Below are positions 57,690-64,000 of a DNA stretch of 64,000 nt, in pieces. The notes beneath the pieces are model-generated. The model searched no databases, was not told the DNA's origin, and saw only the letters and a program-made list of their open reading frames with translations. The stretch is taken from assembly GCF_000948985.2 (NCBI RefSeq), contig NZ_CP059733.1:1302001-1366000 (forward strand). The letters are read 5' to 3'. Position numbers and translations under genes: made by a program. Positions within the stretch are counted from its first letter, which is position 1, and the number at the start of each line of letters is the position of its first letter. The DNA comes from Thalassomonas viridans. GTDB taxonomy: Bacteria > Pseudomonadota > Gammaproteobacteria > Enterobacterales > Alteromonadaceae.

Positions 57690-57788
57690 TTAGAAGGCTT
57701 TTTGCCAGCCGAATATAAAGACGGTGCCTGAGTCCATGCCGATACCGGCGTAATCTTCATAAAGATCCCGGCCAACCTCCGCAGCCAG
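57690..57788 (-). pseudogene. Severed 3' end of the outer-membrane barrel gene
   Basis: Read on the minus strand this encodes ...AAEVGRDLYEDYAGIGMD... and ends GWQKAF then TAA, the final beta strand with the terminal Phe typical of outer-membrane barrels. It joins in frame to the main part at 59059-60130 when the insertion and one copy of the duplication (57779-57788) are removed. It has no start of its own. Confidence 0.88.
57779..57788. repeat. Target-site duplication, left copy (right copy 59059-59068)
   Basis: CCGCAGCCAG occurs immediately outside both ends of the insertion sequence. Ten bases fits the ISAs1 family range. Confidence 0.92.
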
Positions 57789-59058
57789 CAGGGCGAACGG
57801 GTCTAATTTAATCAATTAGCTTGTTTTGAAGTATTTATTCCGTGATCATTTGACTGATCATTATGATCGTGGTTTATAGTAGCCTTTGCTTGAATAAAGA
57901 CAATGACAGAGACGACTATCAGCCAAGTATTTAGTGATCTAACCGACCCTCGTGTAACTCGAACTCAGCGCCACCCCCTGGTTAATATATTAACCATTTC
58001 AATATGCGCCATTATCTGTGGGTGCGATGATTTCTGCGCAATTGAAGAATATGGCAAATCTAAGCAAGATTGGTTTAGTGAATTTTTAGATTTATCTCAT
58101 GGCATTCCAAGCCATGATACCTTCGGTGATGTATTAAACCGATTAAATCCCAAAGAATTTGGTGAGGCATTCATCCGTTGGGTTAGCCAGTTAGGTCACT
58201 TAAATGATGATATTGTCGCCATTGACGGTAAAGTGATGCGCAGTACGCTTGATAAAGCTTCTGGTAACCCTGCAATACATATAGTCAGTGCTTGGTCTGT
58301 AAAGAATAATCTCTGTTTTGGTCAGGTTAAAGTTGCAGATAAGTCTAATGAAATTACAGCCATCCCAATCTTGTTAAAGCTATTAGATATTAAAGGGGCA
58401 ACCATCACAACAGATGCCATGGGTTGCCAGTATAAAATTGGTGACCAAATAGTTGATAAAGAGGCGAATTATTTATTGGCACTTAAGGGGAACCAAGGGG
58501 AATTTCATGATGACGTGAAGTTTTTCTTAGAAACTCAGTTAGCTAAGCACTTCAGCACAGTAGAACATAGCGTTCATAAAACAGTGGATGGTGAGCACGG
58601 TCGTGTTGAACAGCGGGATATTTGGTTAACAACAGATGTGGACTGGCTTATAGAGCGCCATCCTAAATGGAATACCGTCAAAGCGATAGCTGTGGTGGAT
58701 TCAACGAGGGAAAGTGGTGGCAAGGTATCGAGAGAGAAACGCTATTACATAACGAGCCATGCAGATAAAAGTGCCGAATTTTTGGCAATGGCGATACGTA
58801 GTCATTGGCACGTTGAGAATAAGCTGCATTGGCAATTGGATGTTAGCTTTAACGAAGACCAAAATCGGCTTCGTAGCGGACATGCTGCTGAAAATATAGC
58901 ATTGATGAATAAAGTAGCGCTTAACCTACTTAAAAATGAGCTCAGTGCCAAAGTTGGCGTAAAAAATAAGCGTCTAAAGGCCGGTTGGGATAATAATTAT
59001 ATGATGAAAGTATTAACCGTTGGATTTAAAGCTGTATGATTTAGACCCGTTTGCCCTG
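57789..59058 (+). mobile_element. ISAs1-family insertion sequence, complete, 1270 bp
   Basis: The ends are imperfect inverted repeats: CAGGGCGAACGGGTCTAATT on the left and, reversed, CAGGGCAAACGGGTCTAAAT on the right (18 of 20 identical). One transposase gene fills the inside. A perfect 10-bp duplication flanks it, so it arrived by simple, fairly recent transposition. It is clearly richer in A+T than the surrounding operon. It lies opposite to and inside the outer-membrane barrel gene. Confidence 0.95.
57903..59039 (+). CDS. ISAs1-family DDE transposase
   Basis: This full-length 378-residue transposase has the N-terminal associated domain (SQVFSDLTDPRVTRTQRHPL, ISICAIICGCDDFCAIEEYG). The catalytic residues follow: Asp in IVAIDGKVMRST, Asp in ATITTDAMGCQ, and Glu in HWHVENKLHWQLDVSF. 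There is no frameshift, so it is probably functional. Its TGA overlaps the last inner base of the right inverted repeat. Confidence 0.95.
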   Translation: MTETTISQVFSDLTDPRVTRTQRHPLVNILTISICAIICGCDDFCAIEEYGKSKQDWFSEFLDLSHGIPSHDTFGDVLNRLNPKEFGEAFIRWVSQLGHLNDDIVAIDGKVMRSTLDKASGNPAIHIVSAWSVKNNLCFGQVKVADKSNEITAIPILLKLLDIKGATITTDAMGCQYKIGDQIVDKEANYLLALKGNQGEFHDDVKFFLETQLAKHFSTVEHSVHKTVDGEHGRVEQRDIWLTTDVDWLIERHPKWNTVKAIAVVDSTRESGGKVSREKRYYITSHADKSAEFLAMAIRSHWHVENKLHWQLDVSFNEDQNRLRSGHAAENIALMNKVALNLLKNELSAKVGVKNKRLKAGWDNNYMMKVLTVGFKAV

Positions 59059-60130
59059 CCGCAGCCAGCCTGTGGCCTTTTAAACTGCCGCCGGTAAAGA
59101 GATAGTTGGCGCCCAGGAAGAGGGAGGTTTTTTCCTGCTCATAGTTGGCGCTTACGGCGGTGGAGACCATCATAGGATTGAGGCGGCTGTCGCTGCCTTT
59201 GATGGCGTCTTTGTCGGTATGGTTCAGCCTTAACGAAAGCGACAGCTGGTGGGATAACCTGTAGGCCAGCCAGGTATTGAGGGTGAGTTTGTCCCCCGCC
59301 CTGTAGCCCTGGTCGTTGTTTTCCAGTGCAGTTTTCCATAACAGCTGGCCACCCCAGGAGAAGTCGCCCCTGGCCTGGTTGCCGCTATAGGTGATGCCGG
59401 TTTCCAGCTGCCAGCTGTCGAAGCCGGTTTGCATGCCGTAGGGCAGCAGGGCATTTGCTGACATCGGGGTTGTATCCCGCTCTGAAGTTTCGTCGGTTGG
59501 CAGGGTAAAAGTCACATTGGCATGTAATCTCTGGTTTCTGCTGTCCAATACCGACCCCGGCCAGGGCAGTTTAAGTAAAGCGCCGAGCGTGATATCGCCT
59601 AAAGCTGAGGCTTGGGTGCTAAAGTTGTGCACAGCCATAGTGCCTGAATCCATGGCATTTGCAGCCATATCGCCTGTGTGCATGTTATGAGCGTCCATGT
59701 TATCCGGGGCCATCGACATGGCGCTTATGGCCAGATCCATTTCGTTATGGACAAAAGGCACCATGGCCATCAGGGTAATGTCATCACTGGGGGCATACAT
59801 CAGCCCCAGCATGTGCATCTGCATGGTCATTTCTTTCGGCCGCACCATAAAGCTGGTACCGGCACTGTAGTCGGCGGCAGAGAGTTTGTTGCTGCCGCGT
59901 AGCAGGCCGTCCATTTCCATGTGCATATAGCGGTACGACAGCATCCACTCGCCGGTTTTGTGCATATGGTCCGCCATTACGCCTATGGGGGCATGGGCAT
60001 CCGGTAAGCTGCTGAAACTGGGATGGTCGGCGCCGTGGCCAAAAGAGGTGACCGGTAACAGGGCTGTAGCAGCAAGCGACAGGGTAAAGGCCCCGGCTTT
60101 ACCTTTGGCCGGTATCAGGTTGTTTTTCAT
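59059..60130 (-). pseudogene. Met/His-rich outer-membrane barrel protein gene, disrupted by the IS
   Basis: The product has a signal peptide (GAFTLSLAATALLPVTSFGH), an extracytoplasmic loop rich in Met, His and Asp (MAPDNMDAHNMHTGDMAANA), and repeated amphipathic strands (HANVTFTLPTDE, LSLSLRLNHTD, TSLFLGANYLF), suggesting a transporter-like barrel (MetA/phenol-degradation type). The loop could bind Cu. The insertion replaces the last 30 or so residues, including the terminal Phe, with IS-derived residues ending at 58997. It lies 150 bases downstream of the multicopper oxidase gene on the same strand, with a hairpin between them. Confidence 0.85.
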
Positions 60131-60195
60131 GAGAGTGTCATCCTGGAATTAATGTTTTAAGCTGTGCCCGGCAGCCGGGCACATGGTTGGGGAAA

Positions 60196-60230
60196 GGGAT
60201 AGCGCTAAGCCAGAGGAATAGCGCTATCCC
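60196..60230. repeat. Perfect 12-bp inverted repeat between multicopper oxidase and barrel genes
   Basis: GGGATAGCGCTA and TAGCGCTATCCC are separated by 11 bases. On the minus strand only TTTCCCC follows, so this is at best a weak terminator. It could act as an attenuator or processing site that sets expression of the barrel lower than the enzymes. Confidence 0.75.
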
Positions 60231-60280
60231 TGAGCCTTCTCTGAGGCTTATCTAAGATTTATCTGGGACTTATCTAAGAC

Positions 60281-61357
60281 TTAGTTGGCCTTGGACTTTT
60301 TCTTACGCTTCTTCTTTTTCCGGGCTGAGCGGTCTGACTCGGGGGCCTTGCCTCTGAACAGGTCGATATTGTGCAGCCCTGAGCCTTTTTTCATGGTTTC
60401 GCTCATGTAAAAGTCCGGCTGGTATTGCTTGTCTTTCCAGCTATACCAGTCTTCGGTTTCTACGCCTTCGTACTCTATGATAGTGACCGCACCGCCGGGC
60501 ATTTTTCCCGCGTTGGAGGTATGGTGCTCGATATGGTCATGGTTGATCCAGATCCCCGGGTTGTCCATACGGGCAATAAGGTCTACCCGGCCTCCCATAG
60601 GCACATGGACGACATCCGCCCAGTAGGGGCTTTCCAGCGGCAAACCGTCTTTATGGGTCACCAGGACGTCATGGCCGTGCAGGTGATAGGCAACCTCCGA
60701 GCTGGCGGCATACAAGCGGATCCTCAGTACGTCGCCTTCTTTGACCCTCAGCGGCTGGGTGATCGGGAAGGACTTGCCGTTGATGGAGAAATAATCGCTT
60801 TTCTCCGTGGGGTGGCCGCCCTTGCCGTATTCCATGGCCACTTCCGAGTTCCAGCCGGAGAACATCATAATGGCTTCCTTAGTGACTTCTTTTTCTACCT
60901 CTGCCGGTTCTTTCGGGTCGATGATCATAGGGCCCCACATGCCGCGCAGGCCCACATGCTCGGGCACATTTACATGGCAGTGATACCAGAGGCTGCCGGG
61001 GCGGTCGACGATAAAGTCGTAAACAAAGGACTCGCCCGGCTCTATCGCTTTCTGGGTGACATTGGGCACGCCGTCCATCTTCCAGCTGTTGGTTTGCAAC
61101 GTGCCGTGCCAGTGTACGGTATGGGCCAGGGTTGAGTTATTGATCACCTTAACCTTTAACCTGTCGCCTTCTTTGGCGCGGATCAAAGGCCCCGGCACCT
61201 GGCCGTTGAAGGCCCAGACCTTGTTTTTGAAGCCGGGGGCGACATCTACGGTCATTTCGTCTATGGTCATTTCAAATTCCAGGGTTTCCGCGTTTGCCAG
61301 CCCGCTCATCAGCATGGTCAGCGGCAGCAACAGGTATTTGAGGTGTTTGAATTTCAT
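60281..61357 (-). CDS. Two-domain multicopper oxidase (NcgA-like)
   Basis: This 358-residue periplasmic oxidase has a signal peptide and two cupredoxin domains. Domain 1 has a type 1 site (His79, Cys127, His134, Met140) and trinuclear ligands HWHG (His82, His84) and His126/His128 in YHCHV. Domain 2 supplies His225/227 (YHLHGH) and His273/275 (NHDH) and has no Cys. This is the type C arrangement known from Nitrosomonas. The tail is strongly basic (KKKKRKKK). It starts 3 bases after the upstream cytochrome gene's stop, so the pair is probably coupled. Confidence 0.85.
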   Translation of the reverse strand: MKFKHLKYLLLPLTMLMSGLANAETLEFEMTIDEMTVDVAPGFKNKVWAFNGQVPGPLIRAKEGDRLKVKVINNSTLAHTVHWHGTLQTNSWKMDGVPNVTQKAIEPGESFVYDFIVDRPGSLWYHCHVNVPEHVGLRGMWGPMIIDPKEPAEVEKEVTKEAIMMFSGWNSEVAMEYGKGGHPTEKSDYFSINGKSFPITQPLRVKEGDVLRIRLYAASSEVAYHLHGHDVLVTHKDGLPLESPYWADVVHVPMGGRVDLIARMDNPGIWINHDHIEHHTSNAGKMPGGAVTIIEYEGVETEDWYSWKDKQYQPDFYMSETMKKGSGLHNIDLFRGKAPESDRSARKKKKRKKKSKAN

Positions 61358-61360
61358 CTA

Positions 61361-61729
61361 TTATTCCCCTTTTTCACAGCAGATGGTTCTGACATAGGCC
61401 ACCAGGTCATGGATCTCTTCGTCCGTCATATTGGCGTCCCAGTTGGGCATCAGGTTGGATTTGCTCACTGCCTTGCCGCCTTCTTTAATGGCTTTAAAAA
61501 TATCGGCATCGGTACGGGTGATCATTTCTTTGGTTTCGGTATGGTCTTTGGGCAAGACGTCCATCATGGCGGCATTCACCCCCCAGCCGTCGCCGTTGAC
61601 GCCATGGCACTGGGTACAATAGGCCTGGTAAAAGACTTCGCCTTTACTTGCGTCCGGTGCATTGGCGGCTAATGCCTGGCCGGTTCCCGCCAGCAGGCAG
61701 AGTAAGGGAATTATCTGAAGTAATTTCAT
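61361..61729 (-). CDS. Monoheme c-type cytochrome
   Basis: This 122-residue protein has a signal peptide (LLQIIPLLCLLAGTGQALA) and one haem-attachment site AYCTQCHGVNGDG. Met ligand candidates are SNLMPNWD; the domain ends EEIHDLVAYVRTI. It is of the class I cytochrome type. It begins 13 bases after the diheme cytochrome gene's stop and has a strong AGGAG site. It is a likely electron donor to NirK or the oxidase (inference from context). Confidence 0.9.
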   Translation of the reverse strand: MKLLQIIPLLCLLAGTGQALAANAPDASKGEVFYQAYCTQCHGVNGDGWGVNAAMMDVLPKDHTETKEMITRTDADIFKAIKEGGKAVSKSNLMPNWDANMTDEEIHDLVAYVRTICCEKGE

Positions 61730-61742
61730 GTCCTGCTCCTTG

Positions 61743-62447
61743 TTATTGTGAGATGACACTAAGGTAATTCAGTAATTTCTTTACTGAATTGTCGTTTAGG
61801 TGGCGGTTGGGCATTAGGGTTTTCGGATCCCATTTCTCCGGCGCCTTGGTATAGGAAGCGATAAACTCCGGTTGCAGGCGTTTTACCGAGGTGTAAAGCT
61901 CTGGCCCGGATACGCCGCCGTAACCGTCTTCGTCCTGGTGGCAGGAGCCGCAGCCCTTGAATTTATGGAAGTCTTTCTCCCCCAAAGTGCGGTTGGTTTT
62001 GCCTAAGGTAACCTTTTCCTGCCGGATCAGCTCTGTTTTCGGCGTTTGCGCCATCAGGTAGCCGGTCAGCTGTTTGGCCTGCTCGGCGTTAACCGCTATA
62101 TGCTTGCCAAGTTTGCTTTCATCGATAATGTCGCCGTCATCGGTGACTTTGACATTGTCCATAAAGAAATGGCCGCCGGGGCGGATGCGGGTGGGGGCCG
62201 TCAGCCAGCTTTGCAGCCATTCCCTGTTAAACTTGTTGCCGGCATAATAAAGGGTCGGGGCCTTTTCTTTTAACCTTTGTTCCAGGGTGATGTTGTCGTT
62301 GCTGGTGATGCTGTGGCAGTCGGCGCAGCTTTTTTCAAATAATTGCTTGCCGGCTTCATTGCCTGTTGCGCTAAAGGCGTTGCCACTTAACAGCAGGGTT
62401 GCCGATAACAGCGCCAGGCTGTTTTTTTTCAATCTGCTAGGTTTCAT
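61743..62447 (-). CDS. Diheme c-type cytochrome
   Basis: This 234-residue protein has a signal peptide (NSLALLSATLLLSGNAFSAT) and two haem sites, SCADCHSIT and GCGSCHQDE, each within its own cytochrome-c-like half. The late LMPNRHLND contains a Met that may ligate the second haem. It matches the diheme member of Nitrosomonas ncgABC in size and context. It is translated from the ATG at 62447 after GGGAG. Confidence 0.88.
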   Translation of the reverse strand: MKPSRLKKNSLALLSATLLLSGNAFSATGNEAGKQLFEKSCADCHSITSNDNITLEQRLKEKAPTLYYAGNKFNREWLQSWLTAPTRIRPGGHFFMDNVKVTDDGDIIDESKLGKHIAVNAEQAKQLTGYLMAQTPKTELIRQEKVTLGKTNRTLGEKDFHKFKGCGSCHQDEDGYGGVSGPELYTSVKRLQPEFIASYTKAPEKWDPKTLMPNRHLNDNSVKKLLNYLSVISQ

Positions 62448-62553
62448 TTTATACTCCCGAAATAGCTTTTTGTGTCCGTCTCTGTTGTGTAGGGAGGAAA
62501 AAGAGCGTCCCTGCTCAGTCTCTCCACACACATTTACATCCGGTTAGCCGGAT

Positions 62554-63498
62554 TTACCGTACGACCAGGTTGCCGTTTCGGCCCAGTTCCGGGTTGGCGT
62601 CGGACTTGTTCATCAATACCGTGATGGCGCCGTTGAGGGCGGATTTCATTCTGTGGTCCACCAGGGCGTTATTGGTATCGCGGTCGCTCGGGCTGACGAT
62701 GTCGGCAATCACGCCGTGGGCGGGAGCAACGTCTATGGTTTGCAGGCCGTGTCTCAGGTTTTTCGGATGGCCGTTATCCCACACCTTGTCCCAGATACCG
62801 GCAATCGGGTGGAAAGCGGCGTTTTCGTTGATCTTGGCGTTAACGAAGTAAATGCGCACCCGCTCGCCCGGCTTGGACTCAAGCACCATAGAGGCATTCT
62901 GGTCATGTACCGGGTCGTAGTGGAACTGCTTGCCGTTGATTAACGCGCCTTTCCATTTTTCGTTATTGGTCATTTCGCTCGGGGTGGCGTCATCTTCAAA
63001 CAGATCCCCCTCGACGATGACATATTCGCGATCCGGCTTAGGGAAGTTTTTGCTGTAGCCCTCTTTGGGATCGACTATGATCACCCCGTACATGCCGCGG
63101 GAAATATGCTCAGACATGGAATCGGCGCCGCAGTGGTAAATGAAAACCCCCGGGTATTTGGCTTCAAACTTGAAGTCTTTTTTCTTGCCCGGCCTGACCG
63201 CTTCAAACTCGTCCAGGACATCGACAATGGCGGCGTGAAAGTCCATGGAGTGGGACTGCTTGTTGCCTTTTTTATTGAGCAGGGAAAAATCAACCACGTC
63301 CCCTTCGGTCACCCGTATTACAGGGCCGGGAATGGTGCCGCCGTAGGTCCACATATTATGCTTGGTGCCGGCGTTATCTATGGCCACTTCCTTTTCAATC
63401 ACGGGAATTTCCACCTTGACGATTTTGGCATTGGCGCTAAAGCCGGTGGTGATGGTTAAGGCGGCCAGCAGGCCTGTGGCTAATTTAGATAGTTTCAT
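62554..63498 (-). CDS. nirK: Copper-containing nitrite reductase, NirK type
   Basis: NirK reduces nitrite to NO in the periplasm. The 314-residue protein has two cupredoxin domains. Type 1 Cu ligands are His83, Cys123, His131 and Met136 (HSMDFH, YHCGADSMSEH, GMYG). Type 2 ligands are His88, His122 and, in domain 2, His282 (VDHRM). Catalytic Asp86 and His230 (AAFHPIAG) are also present. The ATG at 63498 follows GGAGAAG and gives a clean signal peptide. It is first in the operon. Confidence 0.88.
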   Translation of the reverse strand: MKLSKLATGLLAALTITTGFSANAKIVKVEIPVIEKEVAIDNAGTKHNMWTYGGTIPGPVIRVTEGDVVDFSLLNKKGNKQSHSMDFHAAIVDVLDEFEAVRPGKKKDFKFEAKYPGVFIYHCGADSMSEHISRGMYGVIIVDPKEGYSKNFPKPDREYVIVEGDLFEDDATPSEMTNNEKWKGALINGKQFHYDPVHDQNASMVLESKPGERVRIYFVNAKINENAAFHPIAGIWDKVWDNGHPKNLRHGLQTIDVAPAHGVIADIVSPSDRDTNNALVDHRMKSALNGAITVLMNKSDANPELGRNGNLVVR

Positions 63499-63886
63499 AT
63501 ACTTCTCCGATAAATGATTTATTTGTTTCATGTGCTTTTGAAAATTGATTTTTTATCTTGCTTTTAATTGATCTGGTTAAAGATTGTTCCTTGCATTTTC
63601 TGTTAAGACTTGGATGATGCCTGAGCTATAACATTAAGCGTGCCAAGTTTTTTATTTGTTGTTTATCTGTTGTTTGTGTGGTTTTGTTGTGTTTTCTTGT
63701 TCCGGGGAGAAGTGCCGGCCCTGTACTTTTAACAGTGAAAATGTCATTAGGACATCCGGGGAAAATGGGGCTTATTTATGGCAAGTGTCAGCTAAGGAAG
63801 GAATAAGCCGGCTAATGGAGAAACACCGGCTAGAGGCGGGAAAATTATCGCCTAAAGCCGGCTAAAGTCGGTATATGCGTGGGCGG
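63499..63886. other. Region upstream of nirK
   Basis: This AT-rich region is the likely promoter of the nirK operon. TTGAT-N4-TTAAA (about 63568-63581) is a weak FNR-like site. TGCATTT at 63592-63598 could be half of an NsrR site, but I see no matching second half. A 69-codon plus-strand frame (63656-63865) looks like chance. Confidence 0.4.
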
Positions 63887-64000
63887 TCAGGCACCTTTGG
63901 TTTGCAGGTCCTGAGGTCTGCAAAAAGTCAGCAGGGCATAAGCATAAGAAAGGCACAATAAAAGCAGCGGGCAAAGCTGGTAAAACAGGGCCGTGATACT
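63887..64000 (-). CDS. C-terminal end of a membrane protein (cut by the window edge)
   Basis: The last 37 codons of a minus-strand frame are present, ending TGA. Most are hydrophobic (ALFYQLCPLLLLCLSYAYAL) then a short polar tail (CRPQDLQTKGA). This looks like the last transmembrane helix of a multi-span protein. Placement upstream of nirK would suit an NnrS-like haem-Cu membrane protein, but the fragment is too short to assign. Confidence 0.5.
   Translation of the reverse strand, partial: SITALFYQLCPLLLLCLSYAYALLTFCRPQDLQTKGA

Follow-up and report, generated by a model that had tools for sequence, protein, structure and literature searches.

A nirK-first relative of the ncgABC-nirK cluster in Thalassomonas viridans, linked to NorR and a candidate module of nitrogen-oxide defence

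The present analysis concerns a 64,000-nucleotide stretch of the Thalassomonas viridans genome (hereafter the window; C1:1302001-1366000; the whole genome comprises 7.95 Mb on two contigs) and, within it, an operon encoding a copper nitrite reductase (NirK), two cytochromes c and a multicopper oxidase (MCO). The preliminary description of this DNA had recognised in this operon the gene content of the ncgABC-nirK cluster of Nitrosomonas europaea. Our results agree with it: the four core genes are all present and open, and they form one operon on the minus strand, from 63498 to 60281, in the order nirK-diheme-monoheme-MCO with intergenic gaps of 106, 13 and 3 bp.

62554..63498, minus strand: nirK, encoding an N. 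europaea-type copper nitrite reductase of 314 amino acids (aa) from the ATG at 63498 (TIGR02376 and PDB matches)
61743..62447, minus strand: diheme cytochrome c, 234 aa, with its two CxxCH motifs at residues 41 and 166
about 61361..61729, minus strand: monoheme cytochrome c with one CxxCH (start taken from the sequence, an ATG behind AAGGAG)
60281..61357, minus strand: type C two-domain MCO, 358 aa, a relative of the N. europaea blue copper oxidase and of mgLAC

These gene names agree with the Pfam and NCBIfam matches. NirK scores 177 bits against the NirK equivalog TIGR02376, below its cut-off of 296.3, and its best PDB match is 4kns (E 2.3e-97, 329 bits; runner-up 143.5 bits), an entry listed as 'Multicopper oxidase type 1' that we take to be N. 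europaea NirK. The top NCBIfam match of the MCO is copper_res_A, also below its cut-off (131.7 against 478.95 bits). Among PDB entries, the MCO aligns end to end with the two-domain laccase 2zwn (E 6.6e-133, 447 bits) and matches 3g5w (E 1.3e-106), presumably the N. europaea blue copper oxidase. With these identities of the two entries, NirK and the MCO of the window are homologous to the N. europaea proteins, which are their nearest, or among their nearest, relatives with a solved structure. The N. europaea cluster (NE0927-NE0924) holds the same four gene types, and the homology behind this likeness is supported by the PDB matches, by trees and by conserved ligand motifs.

The comparison with other genomes relied on the best 80 of 191 loci (designated L below), for which an alignment of 29 diheme cytochromes was used to search the contigs; all 80 hold at least part of the cluster. 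The copper ligands of both enzymes, reported as intact in the preliminary description, match the references in all motif columns except a twelfth His of the MCO. As we assign and number these columns, NirK agrees with the references at the type 1 His, Cys, His and Met, at the three type 2 His and at Asp98 and His255, and the MCO agrees at eleven His, one Cys and one Met; the twelfth His tested (278) is not conserved, being Thr in both references and variable elsewhere. The single MCO Cys (127) lies in domain 1, the layout that we take to be named type C among two-domain MCOs. In the alignments with proteins from other loci (73 NirK and 72 MCO, excluding the rows known to be wrong genes, L017, L018, L020 and L021, L033, L049, L060), the NirK ligand and catalytic columns and the eleven His, Cys and Met of the MCO are invariant except for one gapped cell. 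The type C enzymes mgLAC (2zwn) and N. europaea blue copper oxidase (3g5w) share these eleven His, Cys and Met columns and the single domain-1 Cys, and the window MCO differs from them by a Lys-rich C-terminal tail.

A norR gene lies just beyond the window edge, on the opposite strand and divergent from nirK, about 1.7-1.8 kb upstream (open reading frame C1:1367236-1368936, true start uncertain). Its product scores 646 bits against the NorR equivalog, the cut-off of which is 476. Three elements lie upstream of nirK within the window:

63629..63646, minus strand: sigma-54-type promoter, TTGGCACG-CTTA-ATGTT, with a perfect -24 box and an imperfect -12 box
63743..63753, minus strand: NorR-type box 1, GT-N7-AC, within GATGT-CCTAATG-ACAT
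63723..63733, minus strand: NorR-type box 2, GT-N7-AC, GTTAAAAGTAC, 20 bp from box 1

The predicted promoter is located 148 bp before nirK, and the two boxes stand in tandem upstream of it. The promoter and the boxes fall in spacer blocks conserved in three species (the window and two congeners), and the sequence from the promoter down to nirK is fairly conserved too. A scan for sigma-70 promoters and terminators gave nothing above chance. NorR sites have been described as three tandem GT-(N7)-AC motifs before a sigma-54 promoter, with the form GATGT-(N7)-ACATC in Vibrionales (PMC1274295). For P. stutzeri hmp, the same source places the NorR sites at -192, -173 and -148 and the sigma-54 promoter at -91.

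The arrangement of the cluster divides the 80 loci into two sets, loci on incomplete contigs having been assigned from the genes present. The ncgABC-nirK order (MCO-diheme-monoheme-NirK) is found exactly in 42 loci and assigned to 52, and the nirK-first order (NirK-diheme-monoheme-MCO) is found exactly in 24 and assigned to 26, including one with the MCO second (L008); one locus has another order (L057) and one was undecided. The same diheme/monoheme cytochrome pair occurs in both arrangements, which lends indirect support to the two proteins as candidate NcgB and NcgC, and NirK and both cytochromes are retained in nearly all loci on full contigs. Nitrotoga, Gallionella, Nitrospirota and Zetaproteobacteria are found in the ncgABC-order lineage, and Alteromonadaceae, Shewanella, Haliea, Thiogranum, Sneathiella, Denitromonas and a metagenome-assembled genome (MAG) of Campylobacterota in the nirK-first lineage.

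In the NirK tree, the nirK-first rows together with L057 make up one side of a branch with support 100/100, in a tree that includes three MCO genes picked by mistake (L017, L018 and L020). A second NirK tree, which leaves out these three as well as L066 and L077, gives the branch a Shimodaira-Hasegawa-like approximate likelihood-ratio test (SH-aLRT) value of 99. Among the genuine MCO rows, the MCO tree again places the nirK-first rows and L057 on one side of a branch (SH-aLRT 100); this tree also includes four NirK genes (L021, L033, L049 and L060), the contigs of which have no MCO match. One locus with only a NirK fragment (L070) is in no NirK tree. A local rearrangement as the origin of the nirK-first order is ruled out by the supported NirK (100/100) and MCO (SH-aLRT 100) clades, each with L057; judged from these trees, the nirK-first clusters are a separate second lineage and not a local shuffle. 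The difference in gene order from N. europaea, where nirK is last, had been pointed out in the preliminary description; it is real and marks this lineage. Since the window cluster does not have the order ncgA-ncgB-ncgC-nirK, we regard it as a variant of the N. europaea cluster rather than a copy. The N. europaea NirK itself falls outside both lineages, and a clade uniting it with the ncgABC-order rows is not rejected (approximately unbiased test, p 0.317). Unlike the window cluster, the Zetaproteobacteria loci L033, L049 and L071 have a NirK that falls with the ncgABC-order lineage; one of them, from a MAG (L071:936-6795), carries two divergent cytochrome sets and two tandem nirK genes.

Some relatives of the MCO are fused to a cytochrome c domain (P0083, P0086, P0092, P0093 and P0118, about 500-590 aa), which suggests direct electron transfer from cytochrome to MCO. 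An RND efflux pump is found near 26 of the 52 ncgABC-order loci and its adaptor near 25 of 52, mostly downstream (examples: L010, L012, L023-L027). The adaptor has a heavy-metal-binding domain, one example each of pump and adaptor having been scanned, and a copper link of these efflux genes is possible. The corresponding counts for the nirK-first loci are 1/26 and 0/26.

The nirK-first loci are instead accompanied by genes of NO (nitric oxide) sensors. A match to the NorR GAF domain occurs near 13 of the 26 nirK-first loci and near none of the 54 others; the gene is upstream and divergent at 11 of them and downstream at two (L004 and L005). Clustering of the neighbouring proteins found a NorR-like protein at 11 nirK-first loci and at one ncgABC-order locus (L076). 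Three of the 13 linked proteins, besides the window's own, were scanned with the NorR equivalog, and all exceed its cut-off. An Rrf2-family gene lies near eight further nirK-first loci and also near four ncgABC-order loci. Among the six nirK-first Rrf2 proteins scanned, four best match NsrR and two (L045 and L073) RirA, all below cut-off, and one ncgABC-order Rrf2 protein is likewise below the cut-off of the NsrR equivalog. Because of these scores and of the two proteins closer to RirA, we term the genes NsrR-like. Neither regulator was found at five nirK-first loci, three of them on contigs of 3-5 kb (L006, L072 and L079). In place of an adjacent Rrf2 gene, the window cluster has NorR and sigma-54-type elements.

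Using what we take to be the sigma-54 consensus, a site with at most 3/12 mismatches was found upstream of nirK in all 13 NorR-linked loci, always between -52 and -87, against 1/7 readable Rrf2-linked loci (at -335) and 15/43 readable ncgABC-order loci (scattered from -90 to -368). At two mismatches or fewer, the counts are 12/13, 0/7 and 2/43, respectively. Compared with shuffled sequences, scores of at least 9/12 were obtained for 12/13 NorR-linked loci (2.5 expected), 0/7 Rrf2-linked loci (1.0 expected), 3/5 other nirK-first loci (0.65 expected) and 12/46 ncgABC-order loci (7.6 expected); the one NorR-linked miss, L016, is due to a wrong start, and its site was found in the mismatch scan. 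Furthermore, the 150 bp before 17 sigma-54-type sites contain 42 GT-N7-AC boxes, against 7.9 in shuffles that preserve single-base content only, and these boxes recur at about -53, -79 and -99, the spacing published for P. stutzeri hmp (PMC1274295). The 17 sites are best matches chosen before the boxes were counted; one is that of the window and three (L006, L007 and L009) have no norR in view. Shewanella salipaludis also has a sigma-54-type site, with no norR in its 20-kb locus.

Elsewhere in the T. viridans genome there is a second NirK of 476 aa, which has a C-terminal cytochrome c domain and adjoins a sulfatase-modifying-factor-like gene. Within a few kb there is a NorQ-family gene, together with two genes, one for a cytochrome c and one of the COX1 family, that we read as norC and norB, respectively. 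The genome also encodes a 756-aa qNOR with a NorB cytochrome-c-like domain, NnrS, and a nosZ accompanied by NosD, NosL, ABC genes and a 4Fe-4S gene read as nosR. The preliminary description noted that the window holds no nor or nos genes. This is correct for the window, which contains neither any of the five COX1-family matches of the genome nor its one NosZ match; as a hint that the organism is devoid of these genes, it is refuted by the norCB, qNOR and nosZ of the genome. Judged by gene content, all steps from nitrite to N2 are present, including a second NirK, and the nirK of the window is therefore an additional one in this genome. A second norR gene of this genome is divergent from a flavohemoglobin (hmp) gene with globin, FAD and NAD domains (L134:3587-6514, C2), hmp being a published NorR target (PMC1274295).

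Matches of 87-88% to Thalassomonas actiniarum and T. haliotis identify the genus, and NirK is 97% identical to the NirK of two congeners. The diheme protein is present in 3 of the 78 genomes searched, namely this one and two of its three congeners; the remaining 74 gave no match, and a tblastn search of plasmid records with it gave no match. This patchy distribution suggests that the cluster was probably acquired. In a wider survey, the diheme profile matched 22 of 369 drawn Gammaproteobacteria genomes, T. viridans included. Nineteen of the other 21 were analysed: 17 have the ncgABC order, one the nirK-first order and one only cytochrome matches. Some of these 19 repeat genomes behind the 80 loci (e.g. 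G113/L010), and the two sets therefore overlap and cannot be treated as independent. A NorB match at E <= 1e-20 was found in two of the 19, which are mostly ncgABC-order genomes, and a NosZ match in one. None of the titles of the 80 loci names a known ammonia-oxidiser genus, one reading 'Nitrosomonadales bacterium'. Ammonia monooxygenase gave no match in T. viridans or the 19 cluster genomes, in a search that matched no control genome and thus does not show its absence. The preliminary description was right that the cluster exists outside the ammonia oxidisers, and this was already in print for Nitrobacter winogradskyi (PMC5080386) and for Zetaproteobacteria (PMC3603346).

Since the NorR-linked NirK operon comes on top of a NirK that this genome has beside norCB, we read it as a defence against NO and nitrite. 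More precisely, we favour, with a probability of roughly 0.6, the reading that the cluster is an NO-inducible periplasmic module of nitrogen-oxide defence, separate from the respiratory chain from nitrite to N2. NO would be sensed by the NorR encoded divergently upstream, which would bind the tandem GT-N7-AC boxes and activate the sigma-54 RNA polymerase before nirK, so that NirK, the two cytochromes c and the MCO would be made together. In the periplasm, electrons may move between NirK and the two cytochromes, monoheme and diheme, and O2 reduction by the MCO would complete the circuit. As a net result, NirK may oxidise NO to nitrite, the electrons passing through the cytochromes to the MCO, where they are used to convert O2 to water. 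Within the defence reading, we consider this NO oxidation the most likely net flow, at somewhat less than even odds, because a NirK that oxidises NO would need an outlet for the electrons, and the two cytochromes with an O2-reducing MCO could provide it; alternatively, NirK would reduce nitrite and the Ncg proteins would remove the NO. The elements of this reading have precedents, since the NorR regulons have been described as serving NO detoxification (norVW, norB, hmp and others; PMC1274295), an NO-scavenging role has already been proposed for NcgABC (PMC10781756), and oxidation of NO to nitrite by NirK has been proposed and, by citation, reported (PMC10999283, PMC13170337).

Several observations weigh against the defence reading. 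Induction, activity and an NO oxidation coupling NirK to the MCO are predictions from sequence. The -12 box of the window is imperfect, a shuffled window is expected to contain 0.51 matches to a relaxed promoter pattern, and two GT-N7-AC boxes in 502 bp are by themselves no excess (1.7 expected). The loci L006, L007 and L009 also carry a sigma-54-type site with no NorR in view. The NirK tree shows only three changes of regulator and five of site, with one independent pair on well-supported branches, and no formal significance can therefore be attached to their co-variation. The low frequency of NorB in the survey should be read knowing that a divergent qNOR could miss the threshold of E <= 1e-20, the qNOR of T. 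viridans itself scoring E 2.6e-23. At E <= 1e-10, 16 of the 26 nirK-first genomes have a NorB-family match (12 at 57-90% identity and four only at 25-31%), and because of these matches the nirK-first lineage is, on gene content, not remote from denitrification. Finally, NorR and DNR of Ralstonia regulate denitrification genes (PMC1274295), and ammonia oxidisers devoid of nirK still fully oxidise ammonia (PMC13170337).

Some of these points are shared with an account in which the cluster is a second dissimilatory nitrite reductase: NirK would make NO with electrons from the cytochromes, NorCB or qNOR would take up this NO, the MCO would protect against O2 or copper, and NorR would be a regulator of denitrification. 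The catalytic residues of NirK are indeed those of nitrite reductase, the genome has norCB, qNOR and nosZ, NorB-family matches are found in the 16 nirK-first genomes mentioned above, and the participation of Ralstonia NorR in denitrification gene control (PMC1274295) points in the same direction. However, a NirK with a cytochrome domain of its own already lies beside norCB in this genome, an NO-responsive activator that induces an NO producer would feed forward, 17 of the 19 cluster genomes of the survey have no NorB match at E <= 1e-20, and the conserved MCO would have no clear role. We consider this account unlikely, although it should be kept in mind. It is also conceivable that the operon serves copper handling or resistance, with the MCO as a cuprous oxidase, the neighbouring outer-membrane barrel moving copper out or in and NirK as a by-stander. 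This would fit the efflux pump and adaptor genes mostly downstream of ncgABC-order clusters (26 and 25 of 52 loci), the richness of the barrel in Met and His, the fusion of one barrel relative to NosL and the sub-threshold copper_res_A match of the MCO. Efflux genes are nevertheless almost missing at the nirK-first loci, where NO sensors take their place, and a barrel was detected at no more than 3 of these 26 loci. The MCO matches 2zwn over its full length (447 bits), and hardly any locus on a full contig is without NirK or either cytochrome. A copper operon thus appears improbable.

Still less credence, a very small one, is given to a vestigial, horizontally acquired cluster with no present function in this strain. 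The diheme protein is restricted to 3 of 78 genomes, all of one genus of which one congener lacks it, and an insertion sequence cuts the barrel gene; against such a decay speak the open reading frames and intact ligand motifs of all four core genes, the 97% identity between this NirK and those of the two congeners and the conserved promoter blocks.

With the defence reading, the window cluster can be placed among known systems. The N. europaea cluster has been linked to the sensing of NO and nitrite via NsrR (PMC2844404), whereas the window cluster has NorR and a sigma-54-type promoter; its host also differs from N. europaea by a separate NirK beside norCB and by the lack of an ammonia monooxygenase match, in the search without positive control. 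The nirK-ncgABC clusters of N. winogradskyi and Zetaproteobacteria are likewise outside the ammonia oxidisers, and consumption of nitrogen oxides or nitrite detoxification has been proposed for them (PMC5080386, PMC3603346). With the NorR regulon (norVW, norB, hmp, hcp, dnrN and nnrS), the window shares norR, the tandem GT-N7-AC boxes, a sigma-54 site and the published spacing. However, the passages of PMC1274295 covered here list no nirK-cytochrome-MCO operon as a target of NorR and name nirK under NsrR or DNR, and the passages covered of PMC5710167 and PMC11526790 do not describe a NorR-linked operon of this kind either. The nirK-first lineage and its link to NorR, sigma-54-type promoters and NsrR-like genes were not found in our searches of the open-licence literature.

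The surroundings of the operon comprise the following features:

58997..60130, minus strand: Met/His-rich outer-membrane barrel gene (PF13557), its 3' end replaced by insertion-sequence DNA
60190..60245, minus strand: hairpin between the MCO and barrel genes (-27.1 kcal/mol, z -3.85)
57789..59058, plus strand: ISAs1-family element with 15-of-16 inverted-repeat ends
63887..64000, minus strand: 3' end of the gene of a 310-aa membrane protein
C1:1365887-1367242 (L084:1887-3242), mostly outside the window: two membrane-protein genes (310 and 139 aa) between nirK and norR

The barrel protein has 27 Met and 16 His in 377 residues. The preliminary description had joined its gene to the cluster. As a firm member of the operon it is ruled out by the hairpin, the insertion sequence and its detection at only 3 of 26 nirK-first loci, and it is not clearly in the operon. 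The hairpin is possibly a terminator or an attenuator, although it is not among the terminator-like matches of the terminator scan. The ISAs1 element is flanked by a 10-bp target duplication (57779-57788 and 59059-59068) and has replaced the last barrel codons, including a C-terminal Phe found in four aligned relatives. A C-terminal Phe is important for barrels. In the two congeners, the C-terminal end is present and the barrel gene adjoins the cluster. Relatives of the barrel are widespread, one of them, P0325 from Tenacibaculum, being fused to a domain of the copper chaperone NosL. The two membrane proteins of 310 and 139 aa have no Pfam or NCBIfam match and no match in the 80 cluster loci; their genes are kept with norR in both congeners.

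In nitrifiers, the cluster is found amid central enzymes of nitrogen metabolism, and the role of ncgCBA has been described as not fully elucidated (PMC6967387). The same four proteins are found here in heterotrophs (Thalassomonas and Shewanella salipaludis). Since Thalassomonas has a separate NirK beside norCB, the function of the cluster could be tested by deletions outside energy metabolism. A stronger proposal, on balance unlikely, is that the operon is a self-contained periplasmic NO oxidase, converting NO to nitrite aerobically and induced via NorR or an NsrR-like repressor in heterotrophs. If true, it would account for the joint occurrence of four proteins so unlike each other, in many genomes with no detected NO reductase. 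It would also provide a candidate for the step from NO to nitrite in ammonia oxidisers, the enzyme of which is given as unidentified (PMC6967387, PMC13170337). A caution also follows for metagenomes: nirK counts there take in a lineage that, judged by its neighbours and its control, points to NO defence.

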